47,946 nucleotides of DNA from contig JAFEBY010000130.1 of the NCBI GenBank assembly GCA_018242465.1, positions 1-47,946 on the forward strand. The letters run 5' to 3'. Under the pieces are notes generated by a model. That model was not told the DNA's origin, ran no database searches, and saw nothing but the letters and a program-made list of their open reading frames with translations. Position 1 is the stretch's first letter. Every line of letters begins with the position of its first letter. Positions 3,983-19,954 of the stretch are shown here, in pieces. The DNA is from Pseudomonadota bacterium. GTDB taxonomy: Bacteria; Pseudomonadota; Gammaproteobacteria; Xanthomonadales; Xanthomonadaceae. The translations under genes and the position numbers were made by a program.

Positions 3983-5239
3983 CTAGGGATTCGTCGGTTC
4001 GAGCGCAATCGCTTCGTCGGCATCGTGCGGTGAACGCGGAGGGCGTTTGTCGCGCTGGTATTCCCAGCGCCAGAACAGCCACGCCAGCACGCTGAGAATG
4101 CCTGCAGCCAACGCAAGCTGGAACAGGTTGGCGCTCAGCCACGGTGAGATCACTCCAGCCATCACTGCATTCGCCAGCAGGCCGATGAAGGCCTGCATCG
4201 ATGATGCCGCGCCGCGCACGGCCGGGAACATGTCGAGAATGGCGAGCGTGAGGATCGGGAACACCAGCGCGATGCCGAACGAATTCAGCGCGACCGGCAG
4301 CACCGTCGGCAAGACTGCGGGTTCTGCCACGACGTAGTGATAGATGGCGTTGACCAGCGCCGCAACGATGCAGCAGACGAAACCGATGCGGATCTGCGCG
4401 ATGCCGTCGACACGTCCGGCCAATCGTCCCGAGGCGAAGGCACCGAGCATCATCCCGCCGATCATCGGGATGAAGAACCAGCCGAAGCCATTCTGGCCAA
4501 GATGAAGATGATCGAGCACCAGCGCCGGCGCCGACGAAATGTAGAGGAACAGTGCTGCGAAATTGAGGCTGCCGGCGAATGCCAGGCGCATGAAGCGCTC
4601 ATCACCCAGCATCGCCCAGTAGTCGCGCAGCATCGGCGCCACACGCAAGGGTTGCCGGGCGTCCTGCGGATGGGTTTCCGGCAGCAGGACGACGACCGCG
4701 ACGATCATCGCCACGGACAGGAGAACCATGAACCAGAAGATCGCCGGCCAGCGCGACCAGCCGAGCAACCACGCTCCCACCAACGGTGCGATCGCCGGGG
4801 CGATGCCGAAGATCATCGAGACATGGCTCATCAGGCGCTGGGCATCGTCGCCCTGCAAGGCATCGCGGATCACCGCGCGTCCGACGATCAGGCCAACGCC
4901 CGCCGACAGTCCCTGCAACACGCGGAACGCCAGCAGCATCGGCAGGCTGGTCGCCATGGCGCAACCGGTCGACGCAAGACCGAACACCGCGAGTCCGGCG
5001 AGGATCACGCGACGACGCCCCAGCGCATCCGACAACGGGCCGTGCGCCACGCTCATCAAGGCATAGGCCAGCAAGTAGGCACTGATGGTCTGCTGCATCG
5101 CCAGCTTGTCGGCGCCGAATTGCGCGCCGATGTGCGGAAACGCCGGGAAAATCGTGTCGATCGAGAACGGCCCGAGCATCGCCAGCACCCCCAGCACCGG
5201 GGCCAGCCGCGATGCCGACAGCGCGGGCAAGCGGGCCAT
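3983..5239 (-). CDS. Bcr/CflA-type multidrug efflux MFS transporter
   Basis: This 418-residue protein has 12 predicted helices. Its N-terminal half has the drug:H+ antiporter-1 hallmarks: the helix-1 segment GPFSIDTIFPAFP, the loop 2-3 motif GPLSDALGRRRVIL (motif A) and the motif-C-like GIAPAIAPLVGAWLL. These place it in the Bcr/CflA branch, whose members export bicyclomycin, chloramphenicol and other small molecules. The substrate here is unknown. The start is 1 nt after the stop of the upstream membrane-protein gene, so the two form an operon. The C-terminus is an Arg/Lys-rich cytoplasmic tail. Confidence 0.88.
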   Translation of the reverse strand: MARLPALSASRLAPVLGVLAMLGPFSIDTIFPAFPHIGAQFGADKLAMQQTISAYLLAYALMSVAHGPLSDALGRRRVILAGLAVFGLASTGCAMATSLPMLLAFRVLQGLSAGVGLIVGRAVIRDALQGDDAQRLMSHVSMIFGIAPAIAPLVGAWLLGWSRWPAIFWFMVLLSVAMIVAVVVLLPETHPQDARQPLRVAPMLRDYWAMLGDERFMRLAFAGSLNFAALFLYISSAPALVLDHLHLGQNGFGWFFIPMIGGMMLGAFASGRLAGRVDGIAQIRIGFVCCIVAALVNAIYHYVVAEPAVLPTVLPVALNSFGIALVFPILTLAILDMFPAVRGAASSMQAFIGLLANAVMAGVISPWLSANLFQLALAAGILSVLAWLFWRWEYQRDKRPPRSPHDADEAIALEPTNP

Positions 5240-10647: not shown

Positions 10648-13530
10648 ATGCCAAATCACACCGCGCCCGCCATTCGCCGCCTCACCCTTGCCCTCGCCGC
10701 CGCACTGGTGTCCATGCCGATGATGGCGCAACAAACCGACCAGGCCACCACATCGAAAACCGACAAGAAGGAACTGGAATCGGTGACGGTGACGGGGTCG
10801 CGCATCAAGCGCACCGACGTCGAAGCGGCGATGCCGGTCACGATCATCCAGAAAGCGGAAATTCGCGCGCAGGGCATTACCTCGGCGGAGCAATTGCTGC
10901 AGCAACTCAACGTCGCCAGCAACAGTTCGGACAGTCTCGCTGCCAACAGTGGCATCGCGCCCCCCGGCACGCGCGGCAACAACGGCGTTTCGGGCGCCAA
11001 CCTGCGCGGCCAGGGCGCCGACGCCACGCTGGTGCTGCTCAACGGCCGTCGTGTTGCCGCGCACGGACTCGCCGGGCAGGTCGTCGATCTCAACTCGATC
11101 CCGTTTGCCGCAATCGAGCGCGTGGAAGTGCTGCACGACGGCGCATCGGCCGTGTACGGTACCGACGCCATCGGCGGCGTCGTGAACTTCATCACGCGCA
11201 AGGACTACAAGGGCCTGCAGCTGACCTCAGGCGTCGACATCACCCAGGAAGGCGGCGGCAACATCTACCAGGCCGGGATGCTCGGCGGTTGGGGCGATCT
11301 CGACAAGGATCGCTGGAATGTCTGGGTGACGATCAACGCCAAGAAGAACCAGGCGCTGCGCGGCTACCAGCGCGATTTTGCCAACAGCTTCCAAGCCAAC
11401 CGCGGACTGGCGCCGGATACCCGCGGCGCACCCTACGGCAATGTCGTCACTGGCACCGGCAGCCTGATCGGCGGTGGCCTGAAGGACCCCGCCACCGGCC
11501 TCACCAAGACAACGATCAGTCCGCTTGACCTGCCCGGTGGTGCCGGCTGCGTCAATGGCGGCGACATGATGGGACCCTACGGCGACCAGATCTGGGCCAG
11601 CCCCGGCGCCAGCTTCGCCTGCGCCTGGGATTACGGCCGCGCGCGCACGATCCAGCAGCCGGTCAAGACCCTGCAGGCAATGGGCCGCGCCACCTTCAAG
11701 CTTGGCGAGCGCCATGAATTCTTCGTTGAATTCATGGGATCGAACGTCACTTCAACCCGACAATTCGAAGCCCAGCAGATCTCCACCGCCATCAACCCCA
11801 GCGCAACCCAGCTCGATCCCTATCCGTTGAATGCGAACACCAAGGCGACTTACGACTCGGTGTACAACGCCTTGCTCAATTATTTCGGTCCGCAGGCCAA
11901 CCTGGTTTATGGCCGACCGATCACCTACCGCTGGCGTTGCGAGGTGTGCGGTCCGCGCCAGCTCAAGACCACCACCAAGGCCTATCGCATCCTGCTGGGG
12001 CTGGACGGCACGCTCGGCACTTGGGACTACAACATCGGGTTGGCGCGTGCGCAAAGCAAGGCAGCGTCGTCGCTTGCTGGTGGCTACTACTACACTCCGC
12101 AGCTGAAGGCTCTGTTGAACGCAGGCGTCCTCAATCCGTTCCTGATGCCTGGCCAGAGCCAATCGGAAGCGGCCGTCCAGGGGCTGGTCGCCGCTGACGC
12201 TACCGGACTGCAGCTCTATTCCGGCACGACGGCGACGACCACGTTCGACGCCAGTTTCAGCGGCAGCCTCGGCTTCCACTTGTGGGCCAAGGAACCGGTG
12301 CAGGCCGCTGCCGGCGTCGACATCCGCCGTGAGGAATACGAATTCAGCGGCCCGGCGCAATGGGCATTGGGCAACGCCTTCATCTTCGGCGCCCCGGGCG
12401 ATGCGGCGAACTACATGCCGAAGAAAACCCGCAACGTGAAAGCAATCTTCGCGGAATTCAACGTGCCGATCTTCGACAGCCTGTCGGTGGATCTCGCGGT
12501 CCGCCACGATCGCTACGACGGCTTCGGTGGTACCACCAATCCCAAGTATTCATTCAAGTGGCAGCCGGTGGACTGGCTGGCGTTCCGTGGCTCCTACAGC
12601 ACCGGGTTCAAGGTGCCGGACTTCGCCAAGCTGTTCCGCGGCACCATCGAAAGCCCATACACGGGGCTGGACCTCGCCGACCCGGCGATCTGTGCAAAGG
12701 GCCAGTACAACCCCAACGTTCCCAGCTGCAGTGTCCAGATCAAGCCCAACATCCTGAGCGGCGGCAATCCCAAGCTGGAACCGGAAAAAGCCAAGCAGAA
12801 GAGCATCGGTTTCGTCCTGGCGCCCACCCGCAACAGTAACCTCACCGTCGACTGGTGGGAAATCGAACGCACCAACACGATCCGCAGTGGGTTCAGCCTG
12901 ACCACGATGCGCAGCAACTATGCGCTCTATGCCTCGAACTTCATCCGTGATTCGAGCGGACAGATCATCGACATCGACCAGCGGTACATCAATACCGGCG
13001 GCACGCTCAATCGTGGCATCGAACTCGACGGCAACATCGGCGGAAAACTTGCCGGCGGCATGTGGAACGTCCATCTCAATGGCAACTATCTGCTGACATT
13101 CCGCACCAAGAGTTTCGACACCCTGCCCTACAGTGACAATCTGGTCGGCACCTACGATCCCTACTTCAACCTGCCGATCAAGTGGAAGCACACGCTCGGC
13201 TTCAGTTGGAACAAGGGCAACTGGTCGCACACCCTGACCCAGATCTATCGTGGTGGATACAAGGACTGGCAGCCCCCGGGCATCGTCAACGGCTATCGCC
13301 CGCCGGACTACACCCCCAACGTGAAGCCGTACATCACCTACAACTACAGCGCTACTTGGAGCGCTGCCAAGGACCTCAGGCTGACCTTCGGCATCCGCAA
13401 CCTGCTCAACACCAATCCACCGTTCACCCTGCGCTACCTGGATGACGGCGATGGTGCAGGCTGGGATGCGCGCGTGGCCGATCCGCGAGGTCGTTCCTTC
13501 AACCTGCTGGTGGAATACAACTTCATGTAA
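10648..13530 (+). CDS. TonB-dependent outer membrane receptor
   Basis: This 960-residue protein has a signal peptide (residues 1-27, ending MMAQ), a TonB box-like ESVTVTGSRI (about 44-53), a plug domain (IRAQGITSAEQLLQQL, LNGRRVAAHG, IERVEVLHDGASAVYGTDAIGGVVNFIT) and a long C-terminal beta-barrel ending with an aromatic-rich strand (NLLVEYNFM). Such receptors import siderophores, vitamin B12, glycans or peptides across the outer membrane using TonB energy. The substrate is not evident. The ATG at 10648 has a GAGGG ribosome-binding site. Extended upstream starts would remove the signal peptide from the N-terminus and are rejected. A strong terminator follows. Confidence 0.95.
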   Translation: MPNHTAPAIRRLTLALAAALVSMPMMAQQTDQATTSKTDKKELESVTVTGSRIKRTDVEAAMPVTIIQKAEIRAQGITSAEQLLQQLNVASNSSDSLAANSGIAPPGTRGNNGVSGANLRGQGADATLVLLNGRRVAAHGLAGQVVDLNSIPFAAIERVEVLHDGASAVYGTDAIGGVVNFITRKDYKGLQLTSGVDITQEGGGNIYQAGMLGGWGDLDKDRWNVWVTINAKKNQALRGYQRDFANSFQANRGLAPDTRGAPYGNVVTGTGSLIGGGLKDPATGLTKTTISPLDLPGGAGCVNGGDMMGPYGDQIWASPGASFACAWDYGRARTIQQPVKTLQAMGRATFKLGERHEFFVEFMGSNVTSTRQFEAQQISTAINPSATQLDPYPLNANTKATYDSVYNALLNYFGPQANLVYGRPITYRWRCEVCGPRQLKTTTKAYRILLGLDGTLGTWDYNIGLARAQSKAASSLAGGYYYTPQLKALLNAGVLNPFLMPGQSQSEAAVQGLVAADATGLQLYSGTTATTTFDASFSGSLGFHLWAKEPVQAAAGVDIRREEYEFSGPAQWALGNAFIFGAPGDAANYMPKKTRNVKAIFAEFNVPIFDSLSVDLAVRHDRYDGFGGTTNPKYSFKWQPVDWLAFRGSYSTGFKVPDFAKLFRGTIESPYTGLDLADPAICAKGQYNPNVPSCSVQIKPNILSGGNPKLEPEKAKQKSIGFVLAPTRNSNLTVDWWEIERTNTIRSGFSLTTMRSNYALYASNFIRDSSGQIIDIDQRYINTGGTLNRGIELDGNIGGKLAGGMWNVHLNGNYLLTFRTKSFDTLPYSDNLVGTYDPYFNLPIKWKHTLGFSWNKGNWSHTLTQIYRGGYKDWQPPGIVNGYRPPDYTPNVKPYITYNYSATWSAAKDLRLTFGIRNLLNTNPPFTLRYLDDGDGAGWDARVADPRGRSFNLLVEYNFM

Positions 13531-13553
13531 GCAGGCGGACTTCCCGCAGCAAC

Positions 13554-13587
13554 AAGGAAAGGCGCACTCCGGTGCGCCTTTCCTTTT
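13554..13587. terminator. Rho-independent terminator between TonB receptor and AraC-type gene
   Basis: A perfect 14-bp stem (arms 13554-13567 and 13572-13585) with a TCCG loop is followed by a TTTT run on the plus strand. The left arm is A-rich, so it may also stop transcription from the convergent AraC-type gene whose stop lies at 13591. Confidence 0.9.
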
Positions 13588-13590
13588 CAA

Positions 13591-14499
13591 TCACACGTCG
13601 TCACCATCGCCGCGCACGCGCCCAGGACCAACACCTTCGAGGCGCTTGAAGAAACGACGAAACGCCGCCTCGCTGCGATAGCCAAGCATCTCGGCGACCG
13701 CAGCAACGGAAAACCGGCGATTGCGCAACAAGCGCCGCGCTTCGGTGGCGCGCCACTGCGCGAGATACTGGATCGGCGGAACGCCCACGACCTGGGTGAA
13801 CAGTTCCGCGAACGAGGTGCGCGACATCCCGGCGACATGCGCCATGCCCTGGATCGTCCAGTCTTCGCCGGGACGCATGTGGACGGCCGCCAGCGCCTTC
13901 GACAGTCGCGCGTCGACCAGCGCCGCCAGCAACCCGCGCGGCTGCTCGGCACGCCGTACGTATTCGCACACCGCCATCGCGAACAGCGAGTCCGCGAGTT
14001 TGTTCTGCACCACTTGCCGGCCCCAGCGGATATCGCGGCTATTGTTCGCCAGCAATTCGGCGAGCTGGCGAAACGCCGGGCCACTCTCTTCCGAACGGAT
14101 CACGAAGCACGACGGCAACGCGGTGAAGATCGGATTGCCGCTGCCGCCATGGAAATCAAGATCGCCACACAACATGGAAGTATCGGGCGCATCGCCAGCC
14201 GGCGGATGGTGGGGATCGGGCCCGGCCGAGAGCATGTGGCGGCACCCTCCGGGAAAGACCACCAGATCGCCGCGCTCCAGCCACAGGGGTTGCTGCAATG
14301 TTTCCTCATTGATCCAGCATCCACCAGCGGTCACCAGATGAAACTGACCGTGCGGCGTTGCCGGCTCCTGCTCGAACCATGGTCCGCAATAACTGACGTT
14401 CGCGGTGATCTCGACGCGAACGCGGTAGGCGCCCAGGACTGTCTCCAGCACGCTGTCGATGCTGTCCGGGGCGGGTGGAGCCAGATCACTTTGCTGCAT
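13591..14499 (-). CDS. AraC-family transcriptional regulator with N-terminal cupin domain
   Basis: This 302-residue protein has an N-terminal beta-rich cupin-like sensor half (about residues 1-170; CWINEETLQQPLWLERGDLVVFPGGCRHML) and a C-terminal AraC-type double helix-turn-helix (about 195-295; AVHMRPGEDWTIQGMAHVAGMSRTSFAELFTQVVGVPPIQYLAQWRATEARRLL shape). The conserved second-helix signature is AVAEMLGYRSEAAFRRFFKRLEGVGPGRVR. Its ligand is unknown. It is divergent from the bufferin-like operon with 215 nt between start codons, so it could control that operon, but many regulators of this family act on distant genes. Confidence 0.92.
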   Translation of the reverse strand: MQQSDLAPPAPDSIDSVLETVLGAYRVRVEITANVSYCGPWFEQEPATPHGQFHLVTAGGCWINEETLQQPLWLERGDLVVFPGGCRHMLSAGPDPHHPPAGDAPDTSMLCGDLDFHGGSGNPIFTALPSCFVIRSEESGPAFRQLAELLANNSRDIRWGRQVVQNKLADSLFAMAVCEYVRRAEQPRGLLAALVDARLSKALAAVHMRPGEDWTIQGMAHVAGMSRTSFAELFTQVVGVPPIQYLAQWRATEARRLLRNRRFSVAAVAEMLGYRSEAAFRRFFKRLEGVGPGRVRGDGDDV

Positions 14500-14531
14500 G
14501 GCCGCATCCTAGGCCAATCCCACGCCCACTG

Positions 14532-14561
14532 GCCATGCTCACAAGCATGTCATTTCATGGC
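14532..14561. promoter_or_regulatory. Nested palindromes between the AraC-type gene and the bufferin-like operon
   Basis: CATGCT-CACA-AGCATG (14534-14549, perfect 6-bp arms) lies inside GCCATG...CATGGC (14532-14537 with 14556-14561). They are 33-62 nt upstream of the AraC-type start and about 155 nt upstream of the precursor gene. Candidate binding site for the AraC-type regulator or another factor. Confidence 0.4.
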
Positions 14562-14714
14562 GCATCGTCCGAATCGCCTGAATGAACGCGAACTCGCGGA
14601 CGCTCGGGCATGGTGACAGGACGAAGGGGGCTATCCACGGCCGCCATTCGCGGGTGGAATGACCACGCCGCCCGAACGCGACGGCTTCCTCTTCCAACCC
14701 TCCGAGGTTTTCAC

Positions 14715-15017
14715 ATGAACACGCAACTCAAGACCGTTTCCGGCCTGTCCGTGGCGCTGGCCGCCGCATCGATGTTCCTGGTCGCGCCCATCGCGCAAGC
14801 CGCCGGTTCCGGCAGTGCCGCGATGGGTCACTGCATGGGCGCAAACGCCTGCAAGGGCCAGGGGGCCTGCAAGACCACGCACAACGCCTGCAAGGGCCAG
14901 AACGCCTGCAAGGGCCAAGGCTTCACCCAGACCACCGAGAAGGACTGCAAGGTCGCAGGCGGCAAGTTCGAGAGTGCCAAGGGTGCCGCTGCGACGAAGC
15001 CGGCCAGCAAGTCCTGA
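14715..15017 (+). CDS. Bufferin-like six-cysteine precursor peptide (BufA type)
   Basis: This 100-residue protein has a Sec signal peptide (residues 1-29, cleavage about AQA|AG) and a mature part of about 70 residues with six cysteines (C40, C46, C52, C59, C65, C78) in a Gly/Lys/Asn-rich context. NACKGQ occurs three times (44-49, 57-62, 63-68), with a related GACKTT between copies 1 and 2. This is the pattern of the Buf_6/12Cys precursors of the bufferins, in which MNIO enzymes convert cysteines to thiooxazole-type heterocycles that bind copper. Function is inferred from family knowledge and context. The ATG at 14715 follows a GAGG ribosome-binding site, and a longer in-frame ORF start is rejected. 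Confidence 0.88.
   Translation: MNTQLKTVSGLSVALAAASMFLVAPIAQAAGSGSAAMGHCMGANACKGQGACKTTHNACKGQNACKGQGFTQTTEKDCKVAGGKFESAKGAAATKPASKS
14844..14918 (+). repeat. 18-bp direct repeats inside the precursor gene
   Basis: An 18-nt unit encoding NACKGQ occurs at 14844-14861, 14883-14900 and 14901-14918 (the last with one silent change at its third-codon end). Copies 2 and 3 are exactly tandem. Repetition at DNA level suggests recent duplication or conversion of the metal-binding unit. Confidence 0.85.
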
Positions 15018-15026
15018 TGTGCCCCC

Positions 15027-15057
15027 GCTCCGTCCTTTCCATGCGAAGGGACGGAGC
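15027..15057 (+). terminator. Intercistronic hairpin between precursor and MNIO genes
   Basis: GCTCCGTCC (15027-15035) pairs perfectly with GGACGGAGC (15049-15057). The stem can extend three more pairs inward (one G-U). The tail CTTCTTG is only partly T-rich. It starts 9 nt after the precursor stop and ends 31 nt before the enzyme start. Likely role: partial termination or mRNA end protection, giving more precursor than enzyme (inference). Confidence 0.65.
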
Positions 15058-15088
15058 CTTCTTGTCGATGCACCGCAGAGGACACGCG

Positions 15089-15934
15089 ATGACACGCCCC
15101 TTGCAAGGTTTCGGCCTCGGCCTCAGGCCTGCGTACTACGAAGACGCCCTTGCGCCGCATTGTGCGGTGGACTGGTTCGAAATCGTCAGCGAAAACTACA
15201 TGGTCGCAGGCGGTCGTCCCCTGCATGTGCTCGACCAGATCGCCGAGCGGTATCCGCTGGCAATGCATGGCGTGTCGCTCTCGATCGGTGGACGTGACCC
15301 GCTCGATCACGACTACCTGCGCCAACTCACGGCACTCGCGCGACGCGTGCGCCCGCGGGTGATCTCCGATCACTTGTGCTGGTCCAGCGGCAATGGCATC
15401 CATCTCCACGATCTGTTGCCATTGCCGCAGATCGAAGAAGCCGTACGCCATGTCTCGGCGCGCGTGCGCGACGTCCAGGACGCGCTGGGCCAGCAGATCC
15501 TGCTGGAAAACGTCTCCAGTTACCTGCGCTTTTCCGGAGACACCCTGGATGAAGCGCAATTTCTCTCGGCGATTGTCGCGGAGTCTGGCTGCGGCCTGCT
15601 GCTCGACGTCAACAACGTATGGGTGAACGGCCACAATCACGGCTTCGATCCCCATGCAATGCTTGATGCCTTGCCGATCACGGCGGTCGGCCAGATCCAT
15701 CTCGCCGGTCATTCCAGCGACGCGCTCGGCAGCGGCCTGTTGATTGATACCCATGACCAGCCGGTCAGCGACGCAGTCTGGGATCTCTACGCGCATGCCG
15801 TTCGCCGCTTCGGCGCTGTGCCGGCGATGATCGAGCGCGACGACAACTACCCGCCGTTCGCCGAATTGCTGGCGGAGCTCACGCATGCACGCGACATTGC
15901 GGCGACGGCAACGGCGCAAAGGGAGGCAGCATGA
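15089..15934 (+). CDS. MNIO-family (DUF692) peptide-modifying enzyme, BufB type
   Basis: This 281-residue cytoplasmic protein is a member of the multinuclear non-heme iron-dependent oxidase family (DUF692, TIM-barrel). Family motifs are GFGLGLRPAYYED at the N-terminus, WFEIVSENYM (29-38), MHGVSLSIG (59-67), SDHLCW (93-98), LLENVSSY (138-145), LLLDVNNVWVNGHNHG (170-185), QIHLAGHS (202-209), DTHDQPV and ERDDN (249-253). Histidine and acidic residues in these blocks form the iron cluster. In bufferin loci the enzyme modifies precursor cysteines before export. The ATG at 15089 has an AGAGG ribosome-binding site. An ATG at 15068 is less likely. The end overlaps the next gene by ATGA. Confidence 0.93.
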   Translation: MTRPLQGFGLGLRPAYYEDALAPHCAVDWFEIVSENYMVAGGRPLHVLDQIAERYPLAMHGVSLSIGGRDPLDHDYLRQLTALARRVRPRVISDHLCWSSGNGIHLHDLLPLPQIEEAVRHVSARVRDVQDALGQQILLENVSSYLRFSGDTLDEAQFLSAIVAESGCGLLLDVNNVWVNGHNHGFDPHAMLDALPITAVGQIHLAGHSSDALGSGLLIDTHDQPVSDAVWDLYAHAVRRFGAVPAMIERDDNYPPFAELLAELTHARDIAATATAQREAA

Positions 15935-16719
15935 ACCTGCCCATCCCCAACCTTCTCGCGCATCAGGTGGCCCTGCAGGACTGGCTGATGCATGGAAATG
16001 CCGCGCTGTCCGGATGCATCGATGGCGATCGCCGCGACCAGCGCATGCGCATCTATGGCGATGCCTACCGGTTGCGCCTGACCGATATCCTCGCCAACGA
16101 TTTTCCGGTGCTGCATGCGCTGGTCGGCGAAGACATGTTCGACGCATTGGCGGGCGGATATCTGCATGCCCACCCCTCGCGGCATCCGTCCGTTCGTCAT
16201 TTCGGATGCGACTTCCCGGACTGGCTACGACAGCAGGAACACCCATCGACATGGTCGATGCTTGCCGACTTCGAATGGGCGCAAGGCGAAGCCTTCGATG
16301 CCGTCGATGCGGCCGCGATCGCGTTGACGGATATCGCCGCGCTTCCTGCCGATGCCTGGCCCGGATTGCGCTTGACCCTGCATCCGGCAATCCGTCGCGT
16401 CCACGCGCCTGACTGCATCCCGGAAATCGTCGAAGCGCATCACGCAGGCCGGCCGTTGCCGTCCATGAAGGACTGCGATCCATCCGATTGGCTGTTGTGG
16501 CGTGCCGATTTCCGCGTCCATTGGCGCCGACTCGATGCCGACGAGGCAATGCTGCTCGACATGGTGGCTGGCAGCGCGACATTTGCGGACCTCTGCGCCC
16601 AGCTTTCCACTCAGACTCCGGAAACAACCGCAGCGCTTCGCGTCGTCAGCCTGCTCAAACTCTGGATCACCGATGGCCTGGTGATCGCGGCGGCGCCTTC
16701 CCCGAACACGATCGCCTGA
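15931..16719 (+). CDS. DUF2063-family partner protein, BufC type
   Basis: This 262-residue protein has the DUF2063 N-terminal region (QVALQDWLMHGNAALSGCI, RMRIYGDAYRLRLTDILANDFPVLHALVGEDMFDALAGGYLHAHPSRHPSVRHFG), which in MNIO systems recognises the precursor and partners the oxidase. The C-terminal half (about 150-262) looks like a winged-helix or RRE-type fold. It starts with a 4-nt ATGA overlap with the MNIO gene, so the two are translationally coupled and probably form a complex. Partner function is known for DUF2063 proteins next to DUF692 enzymes. Activity here is inferred. Confidence 0.9.
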   Translation: MNLPIPNLLAHQVALQDWLMHGNAALSGCIDGDRRDQRMRIYGDAYRLRLTDILANDFPVLHALVGEDMFDALAGGYLHAHPSRHPSVRHFGCDFPDWLRQQEHPSTWSMLADFEWAQGEAFDAVDAAAIALTDIAALPADAWPGLRLTLHPAIRRVHAPDCIPEIVEAHHAGRPLPSMKDCDPSDWLLWRADFRVHWRRLDADEAMLLDMVAGSATFADLCAQLSTQTPETTAALRVVSLLKLWITDGLVIAAAPSPNTIA

Positions 16720-16729
16720 GGGCCCCATC

Positions 16730-17239
16730 ATGCAACGCTGCGCCACATTCATGAAAAAACCACTCGTCCCCGCATCGATGCAGGATGCCCCGCTGCCCGA
16801 GCGCGCCCATGCCGTGTTGCGCGCGCTTGCCGCCCGCTACGACTGGCTGGCGCCGCTGCTGTTGCGCTTGGTCTTCGGCTATTTCTGGGCGGAAACCGGC
16901 TGGGCCAAGCTGATGAACCACGACGGCTTCACCGAGCGCTTCGTCAACTGGGGCATTCCGTTTCCTGGCTTGAGCGCCTACGTCAGTGGTGCGACCGATC
17001 TCGTCGGCGGCGTGCTGCTGATGCTGGGGTTGATGACGCGGCTCACTACGCTGCCGATGATCTTCAACATGATCGTGGCATTGGCGCTGGTGGTGTTGCC
17101 GGGCGTCTCGACCCTCGACGATTTCGTCGAGTTGAACGAAGTGCTCTACATCCTCGTGCTGTTCTGGCTGTCCATGGCCGGCCCGGGGCGCGCCAGCCTC
17201 GATCACCTGATCGCACGCCGTTCCGCCAGTCGCGCATGA
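16730..17239 (+). CDS. DoxX-family membrane protein of the bufferin-like operon
   Basis: This 169-residue protein has four hydrophobic helices (about 42-60, 78-98, 103-125, 135-153) and the DoxX signature LVFGYFWAETGWAKLMN...GFTERFVNWGIPFP. DoxX proteins commonly accompany bufferin-type loci, and a redox or membrane role is suspected but not settled. The start at 16730 is 10 nt after the DUF2063 stop, with TGAGGG upstream. An alternative ATG lies at 16751. It closes the operon and is followed by a strong hairpin that also ends the convergent aminopeptidase gene. Confidence 0.88.
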   Translation: MQRCATFMKKPLVPASMQDAPLPERAHAVLRALAARYDWLAPLLLRLVFGYFWAETGWAKLMNHDGFTERFVNWGIPFPGLSAYVSGATDLVGGVLLMLGLMTRLTTLPMIFNMIVALALVVLPGVSTLDDFVELNEVLYILVLFWLSMAGPGRASLDHLIARRSASRA

Positions 17240-17242
17240 AAA

Positions 17243-17270
17243 AAGAAACCCGCCTTGCGGCGGGTTTCTT
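17243..17270. terminator. Bidirectional terminator between DoxX and aminopeptidase genes
   Basis: A perfect 12-bp stem (AAGAAACCCGCC / GGCGGGTTTCTT) with a TTGC loop. On the minus strand it is followed by a T-run (A-run at 17239-17244 on plus), a textbook terminator for the aminopeptidase gene. On the plus strand the tail TTTCTT also allows termination of the bufferin-like operon. Confidence 0.9.
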
Positions 17271-17305
17271 CCATTGCAGCATCTCTTGAAAAGCCAGCGG
17301 ATCGA

Positions 17306-19954
17306 TCAGCCGCCGTTCTTCGCCAGCCAGGCATCGACGGCCGGGATCTGCTCCTTGTGCACCTTGATGCGGTATTCGATGCCCGCGATCGCGGTATCGG
17401 CATCGCGGCGCGACGTCGGCGCAAGATACTTCTCGGCGTAGCCGTGGATCTTGTCGATCATCGCCGGATCCGAGGAGCTGGCACCCAGGCCGGCGTAGTA
17501 GCGGCTCAGCGACGAGTTGTCGACCAGCTTGTCGACCTGCTCACGATGCGCCAGCGCCCAGTCGAACACCATGTCCGGGTGGTCAAACGCAGCGCCGCGG
17601 ACCATGCCCGCGCTCGTCGTCGCACCCGGCTCGTCGGTCAGGGCCAAGTCCAGCGCCTTCTGGGCCAAGGTCGCGTCTTCCGCCGATGCCAGCAACGAAT
17701 ACATCTGCGACTTCACCATCGGGGTTGGCGCCGACTTCGCCATCGCGTGCAACTGGTCCCACTCGGCCGGCGTCGCCTTGGAACCGACGAGGCCCAACAC
17801 GATGCGGCGCATTTCCGGCGCCATTGTCCCGCCCGATTGCAGCGTAGCGAAGCGCTTGCGTGCCTCGGCCAGCGTCGCCGCATCATCCATGCCGCCAAGC
17901 GTGCCGATCAGGCTCATGCGCAGCGACTTCACGGCAGCGGAATCGTTGGCCTTCTGCTCCCAGCCGAGCTTGTCCAGCATCGGGCGCAGGCGCTTGGTCG
18001 CATACGCCTGGAATGCACCGCGGTTGGCATCTTTCTTCTTGTAGCTGTTGATGGTCGCCAGCGAACCCACCAGGGCCTGCTGCACCTGCGGCTTGGAATC
18101 GGCATTGATGCTGCGGGTCAGTTCAAGGTAATCGGCGATCGGCTGGCGACCGGCGGTACCCAGCGACCAGGTATCGCTCATCAGGCCAAGCTGGTCGATC
18201 GGCTTCAGCTGCGCGAACGCCTTGCTGATCGCAGCGAACTGGTCGGCGGAATAGTGCGTGCGGTAATAGCCGGCCTGACCGGCATTCACCAGCACCGGGC
18301 CACACCCCTGCAGGGTGATGCTGCCCTTGCCATCACGCACCAACGTGCGCGACTGTGGCTTGCCCACCACTTCCGCCACCACCGGCACGCGCCAACTCAA
18401 CGGGGTCTTGTCAGGACGGTCACGGGTGAATTCCCCTTGGGTCAGTTGCACCGTGGTCTTGCCGTTGCTGCAGGTAACGGCACCGACATCGATCTGCGGA
18501 ATGCCCGGCTGCAGGGTGAAGTCGTGCGCGATGTCCTTGATCGGCATCTTGCTGCCTTCATCCATCGCGTTCCAGAAATCATCCGACACGGTGTTCGAGT
18601 AGGCGTGCTTCTTGATGTAGCGGCGCACGCCGGCGCGCCACGCGTTCTCGCCGAGATAATTCTCGAGCATGTGGATCACCGACTCGCCCTTGGAATAGGT
18701 GATGGTGTCGAAGGCCTGGCTGGCCTGTTCCACCGTCGCCACGTGCTGCACGATCGGATGGGTGGTCGCGATCGCGTCGCGACCCATCGCCGCTTCACGC
18801 ACGCCCACCGCGCTGATCGCCGTTTCCCACTCCGGATGCAGCTTGGCGGTGGTGCGGCCTTCCATCCACGAGGCAAAGCCTTCGTTCAACCACAGGTCGT
18901 CCCACCAGCGCATCGTCACCAGATCGCCGAACCACTGGTGCGCCATTTCGTGGGCATCGGTGGTGAACACGCCGATCTTGTTGCCTTCGGTCGAGACCTT
19001 GGGATCGAGCAGCAACGCGTATTCGAAGGTGAAGATCGCGCCCCAGTTTTCCATCGCGCTGAAGAACTGGCTCTGGCCCGGCGCAGCGATGTTGTCGAGC
19101 TTCGGCAGCGGATACTTCACACCGAAGTAGTCGTTGTATTCATTGATGATCTTCGCGCCCGATTCCAGCGCGAAGTCGGCCTGCGAGACCATGCCCTTCT
19201 GAGCAATCACGCCGATCTCGGTGCCGCCCGCGGCCTTGGTGGTGCGGCGCTCGAAGTCGCCGAGACCGAAGAACAGCAAGTAGGTGGACATCTTCGGCGA
19301 GGTTCCGAAGGTCACGCGCTTCATGCCATTGCCAGCGTCCTTGCTGGACTTGACCGGCATGTTGCTGACGGCCATCTGGTCCTTCGGCACCACCGCGGTG
19401 AGGTCGAACACGGCCTTGTAGTTCGGCTCGTCCCAGCTCGGGATGAAGCGGCGGGCATCGGAATTCTCGAACTGGGTGTACAACGCGCGCTTCTTGCCGG
19501 CCTTGGTGTCGTAATCAAGGGCGAAAATCCCGATCGCCTGGGTGCCGATCTTGCCGGTGTAGTGCGTGGACAGCACGTAGCGGCCCGGCTTCAGTTCCTT
19601 GTCGAAGGTGAAGGTCGCGGTCTGGTTGGCCGCATCGACGCTCACTTGCGGCATCATCGCGCCACCTGCGCCCTTAAGGCTGGTGTGCGAGAACGTCATG
19701 TCGATCGCGTTGAGGGTGATCGTCTTGGTCGCCTGGACCACGGCGATGTCAATCGAGACCACGCCGTCGAAATTCATGTCCTGCGCGTGCGGCGTCACTT
19801 CCACGGTGTAGTGCTGCGGCACCACGTTGCGCGGCAACTGGGTGGTCGTGGTGGTGTCGATGCGCGGCAGTGCGGACGCGGCTGCCGGCTTGGTGGCGGC
19901 GTGGGCCTGACCCGCAAGCGCGGCGGCGATGGCAAGACTGAGGATGCGGGACAT
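17306..19954 (-). CDS. Secreted M1-family zinc aminopeptidase
   Basis: This 882-residue protein has a signal peptide (residues 1-19, ending GQAHA), an M1 N-terminal beta domain, the SAMENWG variant of the GAMEN exopeptidase motif (about 299-305), the zinc-binding HEMAHQW motif (about 335-341) with the downstream NEGFASW glutamate ligand, and a large helical ERAP1-like C-terminal domain. It should remove N-terminal residues from peptides in the periplasm or outside the cell. The length and ERAP1-type C-domain match aminopeptidase N-type enzymes. Because it carries a signal peptide it is not E. coli PepN, so I give no gene symbol. The gene ends at a strong terminator shared with DoxX. Confidence 0.95.
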   Translation of the reverse strand: MSRILSLAIAAALAGQAHAATKPAAASALPRIDTTTTTQLPRNVVPQHYTVEVTPHAQDMNFDGVVSIDIAVVQATKTITLNAIDMTFSHTSLKGAGGAMMPQVSVDAANQTATFTFDKELKPGRYVLSTHYTGKIGTQAIGIFALDYDTKAGKKRALYTQFENSDARRFIPSWDEPNYKAVFDLTAVVPKDQMAVSNMPVKSSKDAGNGMKRVTFGTSPKMSTYLLFFGLGDFERRTTKAAGGTEIGVIAQKGMVSQADFALESGAKIINEYNDYFGVKYPLPKLDNIAAPGQSQFFSAMENWGAIFTFEYALLLDPKVSTEGNKIGVFTTDAHEMAHQWFGDLVTMRWWDDLWLNEGFASWMEGRTTAKLHPEWETAISAVGVREAAMGRDAIATTHPIVQHVATVEQASQAFDTITYSKGESVIHMLENYLGENAWRAGVRRYIKKHAYSNTVSDDFWNAMDEGSKMPIKDIAHDFTLQPGIPQIDVGAVTCSNGKTTVQLTQGEFTRDRPDKTPLSWRVPVVAEVVGKPQSRTLVRDGKGSITLQGCGPVLVNAGQAGYYRTHYSADQFAAISKAFAQLKPIDQLGLMSDTWSLGTAGRQPIADYLELTRSINADSKPQVQQALVGSLATINSYKKKDANRGAFQAYATKRLRPMLDKLGWEQKANDSAAVKSLRMSLIGTLGGMDDAATLAEARKRFATLQSGGTMAPEMRRIVLGLVGSKATPAEWDQLHAMAKSAPTPMVKSQMYSLLASAEDATLAQKALDLALTDEPGATTSAGMVRGAAFDHPDMVFDWALAHREQVDKLVDNSSLSRYYAGLGASSSDPAMIDKIHGYAEKYLAPTSRRDADTAIAGIEYRIKVHKEQIPAVDAWLAKNGG

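Follow-up and report, generated by a model that had tools for sequence, protein, structure and literature searches.

How are Buf2 bufferin operons, which do without the sigma/anti-sigma pair of the Buf1 type, turned on? We address this question with a contig of 47,946 nucleotides (JAFEBY010000130.1; the whole stretch is called the window below) from a bacterium related to Lysobacter. Positions 14715-17239 of its (+) strand hold, in this order, genes for a six-cysteine precursor, a multinuclear non-heme iron-dependent oxidative enzyme (MNIO), a DUF2063 partner and a DoxX protein. By itself the operon is a further member of a family that is large, was described recently and already has dedicated NCBIfam models. 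The part worth following is a divergent AraC-type gene (13591-14499, (-) strand) together with a direct repeat in the intergenic region, both of which lie outside the coordinates given in a first-pass annotation of the operon and were missed there; this linked regulator and its conserved site would make the question testable. We propose that the Buf2 subclade to which the operon belongs recruited a dedicated RclR-like AraC-type activator, and that, through a 21-bp repeat operator, synthesis of a copper-binding thiooxazole peptide is tied to the oxidation of thiols (e.g. by hypochlorite) and/or to copper, a hypothesis to which we give about an even chance of being right.

The first-pass annotation, made from the letters of the sequence, had read the locus as a complete bufferin-like operon, presumed to make a metal-binding peptide, with a 100-residue precursor and an intact DUF692 enzyme. 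The description of the genes holds, down to the ATGA by which the DUF2063 gene overlaps the MNIO gene and the 10 nt that separate it from doxX, and the label can be narrowed to Buf2 (BufA2). The precursor gene, bufA2 (14715-15017, (+)), encodes 100 residues with cysteines at positions 40, 46, 52, 59, 65 and 78, five of them followed directly by lysine, and with three NACKGQ units; its N-terminus, ending in ...PIAQA, looks Sec-like by inspection alone. The profile comparisons that the annotation had suggested as a check came out in favor of its reading, with both curated cut-offs passed: the precursor scores 88.2 bits against NCBIfam NF050166 Cu_RiPP_BufA2 (cut-off 60), and the MNIO scores 377.5 bits against NF050167 MNIO_BufB (cut-off 310). 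DUF2282, the Buf1 precursor family, has no match in the window's own genome (87% complete), in which profile searches find one MNIO match and one BufA2 match. The precursor has no Pfam family match, and its six cysteines and three NACKG motifs are invariant across all 15 aligned precursors.

The longest open reading frame of the MNIO gene spans 15017-15934. A start at 15017 was rejected, and the true start is most likely at 15089, because six relatives (L002-L006 and L008) align from that residue and because the longer frame would run through a predicted hairpin at 15027-15057. The resulting bufB gene (15089-15934, (+)) encodes a putative bufferin maturase that matches PF05114 with 363.6 bits and retains the conserved His/Glu/Asp/Asn blocks of the DUF692 enzymes; His60, His95, Glu140, Asp173, His208, His222, Glu249 and Asp251 are among the columns invariant in 15 aligned sequences. 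Asp251 aligns with the published catalytic base, and the next residue is Asp252, whereas the Haemophilus somni (H. somni) structure 3BWW has Phe. For the product of bufC (15931-16719, (+)), which scores 79.5 bits against PF09836, sequence searches of the PDB gave no match, and a structure model was therefore used. This AlphaFold model (mean predicted local distance difference test score, pLDDT, 85.8) matches 3DEE first (E 2.2e-07, target template modeling score 0.74, 16% identity) and, in second place, the partner chain TglI, each with a match probability of 1.00, and on this predicted fold the protein is a DUF2063 partner of the RiPP (ribosomally synthesized and post-translationally modified peptide) recognition element (RRE) type with the PME1 fold (PME-type 1). 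The last gene (16730-17239, (+)) encodes a DoxX-family membrane protein (PF07681, 63.1 bits, cut-off 23.6). Each of these Pfam scores lies above its cut-off, and together with the two NCBIfam scores they put the four-gene set far above chance.

The same three proteins also score against models of a neighboring branch, the MNIO with 279.7 bits against HvfB, the partner with 56 bits against HvfC and the DoxX protein with 72 bits against the HvfX-family model, which raises the alternative of a place in the HvfA/oxazolin (EGKCG) branch and not in Buf2. However, all three scores miss their cut-offs (360, 142 and, narrowly, 80), and the EGKCG repeat was not found in the precursor, which passes the BufA2 model instead. 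This assignment was rejected, and we consider it extremely improbable. Oxazolins (HvfABC) and fontiphorins (FonABC) do have a related MNIO and partner, and 5-thiooxazoles in their revised structures according to a preprint (PMC12668002), but their EGKCG repeats present Lys-Cys where the present precursor has Cys-Lys.

Published relatives agree with the Buf2 assignment. A 2025 survey (PMC12452194) describes a Buf2 core of precursor, MNIO, DUF2063 and DoxX genes, with six cysteines in 90% of Buf2 precursors; the preprint (PMC12668002) treats precursors with multiple Cys-Lys motifs as one class, lists NACKG among the commonly occurring motifs, and describes in Cys-Lys MNIOs an Asp that replaces Phe beside the catalytic Asp. 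As the BufA2 and BufB cut-offs are passed, the published core is present and the Asp pair of Cys-Lys MNIOs is in place, we regard this as very probably an ordinary Buf2 bufferin (captophorin) operon with a copper-buffering role. It resembles Buf2 operons such as that of Caulobacter vibrioides in precursor family, six cysteines, Cys-Lys motifs and gene core, and also in that the anti-sigma factor NrsF has no match in the window's own genome, a search that did not extend to sigma-factor families. The first-pass annotation had taken the unseen sigma/anti-sigma pair as a sign that regulation may differ; this caution was right yet unsurprising, because the survey reports such genes in Buf1 clusters and not in Buf2 clusters (PMC12452194). 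Buf1 (DUF2282) bufferins share the MNIO and the DUF2063-RRE partner and have a Sec-type precursor, as the present one appears to be, and copper chelation by their thiooxazoles is reported; they differ in precursor family and in the sigma and NrsF genes reported for their clusters.

Some points weigh against a copper-binding thiooxazole product. The survey characterizes the chemistry of Buf2 products no further than a loss of mass and an absorption band at 305 nm for the one from Caulobacter (PMC12452194), and the preprint reports that an EGKCG-type (Fon) enzyme failed to process a NACKG substrate (PMC12668002). Gold or mercury is moreover a possible ligand, and the peptide could be a bufferin whose main ligand is another metal (gold, mercury or zinc): some bufferin operons were first named as gold-induced genes and MerC-Buf2 fusions exist, as the survey notes (PMC12452194), and a Legionella operon of the gold-induced kind is described as responding to both gold and copper (PMC5413113). 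However, a preliminary account by the authors of the survey has the Buf2 product of Caulobacter behaving like Buf1, which binds copper (PMC12452194), and we consider another main ligand quite unlikely.

What sets this operon apart from the Buf2 operons of the 2025 survey, in whose main text AraC has no occurrence, is the divergent AraC-type regulator and the 21-bp repeat. The regulator gene lies 215 bp upstream of bufA2, and its product matches Cupin_6 (115.6 bits) and HTH_18 (72.2 bits). Against the RclR model NF040475 it scores 105.3 bits, well short of the cut-off of 400, and because this family cut-off is missed we do not name it RclR. Among 297 sampled genomes of the family, 34 have a BufA2 match (31 above the cut-off), and 30 of the matches were assigned loci; at 15 of these 30 loci a divergent AraC-type gene lies alongside. 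With at most seven candidates scored per genome, orthologs of at least 65% identity were found in 15 of the 297 genomes, the same 15, all of them divergent beside buf2, and the next best match below them has 41% identity. A search of 369 genomes sampled from the class gave, the window's own apart, no regulator match above 43% identity. In a tree of 38 MNIO rows (after removal of 7 duplicates), all 15 rows with a linked AraC-type gene group together as a single clade (support 100/99); beside it stand two Nevskiaceae loci that lack a linked regulator.

The shared promoter region is conserved across this clade. The gap between regulator and precursor measures 165-232 bp in the 15 linked loci, and in the window it contains two direct half-sites GGACGNNNGGNNAT, starting at 14598 and 14619 and together forming the proposed operator (14598-14632, (+)), upstream of a -10-like TGGAAT (14655-14660, (+)). 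The half-sites start 21 bp apart in 14 of the 15 loci (20 bp in L047), and TGNAAT stands exactly 36 bp past the start of the second half-site in 13 of them, the window included (35 bp in L047; L043 has TCAAAT); the TGGAAT hexamer by itself is not rare. A pattern scan found no match to the sigma-70 consensus; there is no good -35 hexamer, so the promoter is possibly activator-dependent. A mismatch-free match to the repeat occurs once in the window's own genome, at 14598-14632. A control with the reversed pattern gave 14 matches at up to two mismatches, and matches to the repeat at that level are therefore no better than chance; a one-mismatch repeat on contig C82, considered as a second target of the regulator, was rejected, as by eye it lies inside an aminotransferase-like frame, and a match with two mismatches is located on contig C129.

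Scored out of 18, the repeat reaches 13-18 in the 15 linked loci (at least 16 in 14 of them) versus 10-15 in 29 unlinked loci, in a comparison from which 7 duplicates were dropped and in which precursor starts were estimated from BLAST hits. The Mann-Whitney p of 5e-8 for this difference overstates the case, given the relatedness of the loci and a motif derived from the linked set. The score lay above all 200 DNA shuffles in 14 of the 15 loci and was reached by 8 of 200 in L047, a result that is descriptive only, again because of where the motif was taken from. Several points have to be set against the proposed pairing of regulator and site: the motif was read from the very sequences in which it was scored, in 15 related loci; some unlinked loci score as high as the weakest linked one (L047, with 13); and three Nevskiaceae loci (L007, L010 and L011), with weaker 21-bp repeats near position 4770, some 140-160 bp upstream of bufA2, score 14-15 with no linked regulator.

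These Nevskiaceae repeats would fit the view that the AraC-type gene is merely a neighbor and that another factor acts on the repeat. Two of the three genomes, however, encode a 48% regulator homolog on another contig; no buf match was found in the 7 kb around these homologs, and the unlinked protein could, but need not, act as the regulator there. Linkage at 15 of 15 loci, with no ortholog of at least 65% identity elsewhere in the 297 genomes, also argues against a chance neighbor, as does the arrangement of the site, since AraC-family sites typically consist of such a 21-bp direct repeat next to a promoter. We therefore regard the neighbor-only explanation as rather improbable, and propose from the conserved linkage and sequence features that the AraC-type regulator serves this Buf2 subclade as its dedicated activator and responds to stress by oxidants or copper.

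The nature of the signal is suggested by conserved residues of the regulator. Cys38, Cys61, Cys111, Cys178, His54 and His88 do not vary among the 14 complete orthologs, and in an alignment with Escherichia coli (E. coli) RclR, Cys111 falls on Cys89 and Cys38 lies three columns off Cys21, the two residues whose oxidation is reported to activate RclR (PMC7464077). As in RclR, a trigger acting through thiols or copper is suggested by the conserved cysteines. Like RclR with rclABC, the regulator is of the AraC family, is divergent to its proposed target operon and shares the Cys89 position; unlike RclR it falls below the cut-off of the RclR model, and its proposed target genes differ. It may therefore work like RclR without being called RclR. 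The same invariant cysteines and histidines could also belong to a copper sensor that does not sense oxidants, a reading also favored by the position of the genome's only mismatch-free repeat in front of a copper-buffering operon. Against it, among seven distant relatives Cys38 and Cys61 are each retained in six and Cys111 in all seven, and some of these relatives have CMD-family or rhodanese genes nearby, so that the three residues are not specific to the operon; Cys178 is, with Arg at this position in all seven. We see a pure copper sensor as a real possibility, somewhat short of an even chance.

The surroundings of distant relatives of the regulator (33-42% identity) were compared in 13 stretches, in which no MNIO, DUF2063 or BufA2 match was found. 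Five of the 13 have a CMD-family gene (L069, L071 and L081) or a rhodanese gene (L075 and L077) nearby, perhaps members of a broader oxidant or sulfur response group, and in the remaining eight no CMD-family or rhodanese gene was recognized. At three places (L073:3077-3553, L079:1091-1558 and L080:1168-1644), similar small secreted-looking frames (KPGKYRF..TNKA) with no Pfam match adjoin the distant relatives.

Taken together with what is published on bufferins, these features point to a possible sequence of events. In this Lysobacteraceae clade the adjacent AraC-type regulator would bind the 21-bp direct repeat beside a weak promoter and switch on transcription of the operon. The precursor would then be bound by the DUF2063/RRE partner and its Cys-Lys motifs oxidized by the MNIO to 5-thiooxazoles, at a guess on four or five of the six cysteines; the modified peptide would be exported by Sec to the periplasm and chelate excess copper there, and DoxX may help in a membrane redox step. 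By analogy with studied bufferins, we infer modification, export and copper binding for this peptide. If the proposal is true, the regulator would be, as far as the open-licence literature searched goes, the first dedicated one named for Buf2 bufferins, and copper buffering would be tied to an RclR-like oxidant response. Such a link is hinted at by reports that hypochlorite induces a related MNIO operon of Haemophilus influenzae (PMC7907618) and that RclA of E. coli confers protection from hypochlorite combined with copper (PMC7527725).

Beyond the promoter, two hairpins frame parts of the operon; no known RNA family was found in 13400-17500. The hairpin at 15027-15057 (+), in the gap between precursor and MNIO genes, is terminator-like by pattern scan, although two such sites in the stretch compare with 1.6 in shuffles. 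A hairpin with differing sequence follows the bufA2 stop directly in all of the 15 loci but L042, as seen by eye on 70-nt folds with no shuffle control, and the one in the window may favor precursor over enzyme. A strong hairpin at 17243-17270 (GAAACCCGCC...GGCGGGTTTC), assigned to neither strand, was read directly from the sequence and not listed by the pattern scan; it lies between doxX and a convergent frame at 17306-19954 and is likely a shared terminator.

BufA2 loci elsewhere in the family vary in layout. In five genomes (G129, G040, G247, G199 and G089) two BufA2 matches stand in tandem, spaced by 186-252 bp within an open frame of 191-378 residues, and these frames (loci L040, L049, L045 and L051, with none assigned for G089) fit the published 12-cysteine Buf2 type. 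At L013, L014 and L018 a BufA2 gene lies beside a DoxX-like match, with no MNIO or DUF2063 match within the fetched flanks, and at L017:5001-8371 two MNIO/DUF2063 pairs face each other next to a single BufA2 gene.

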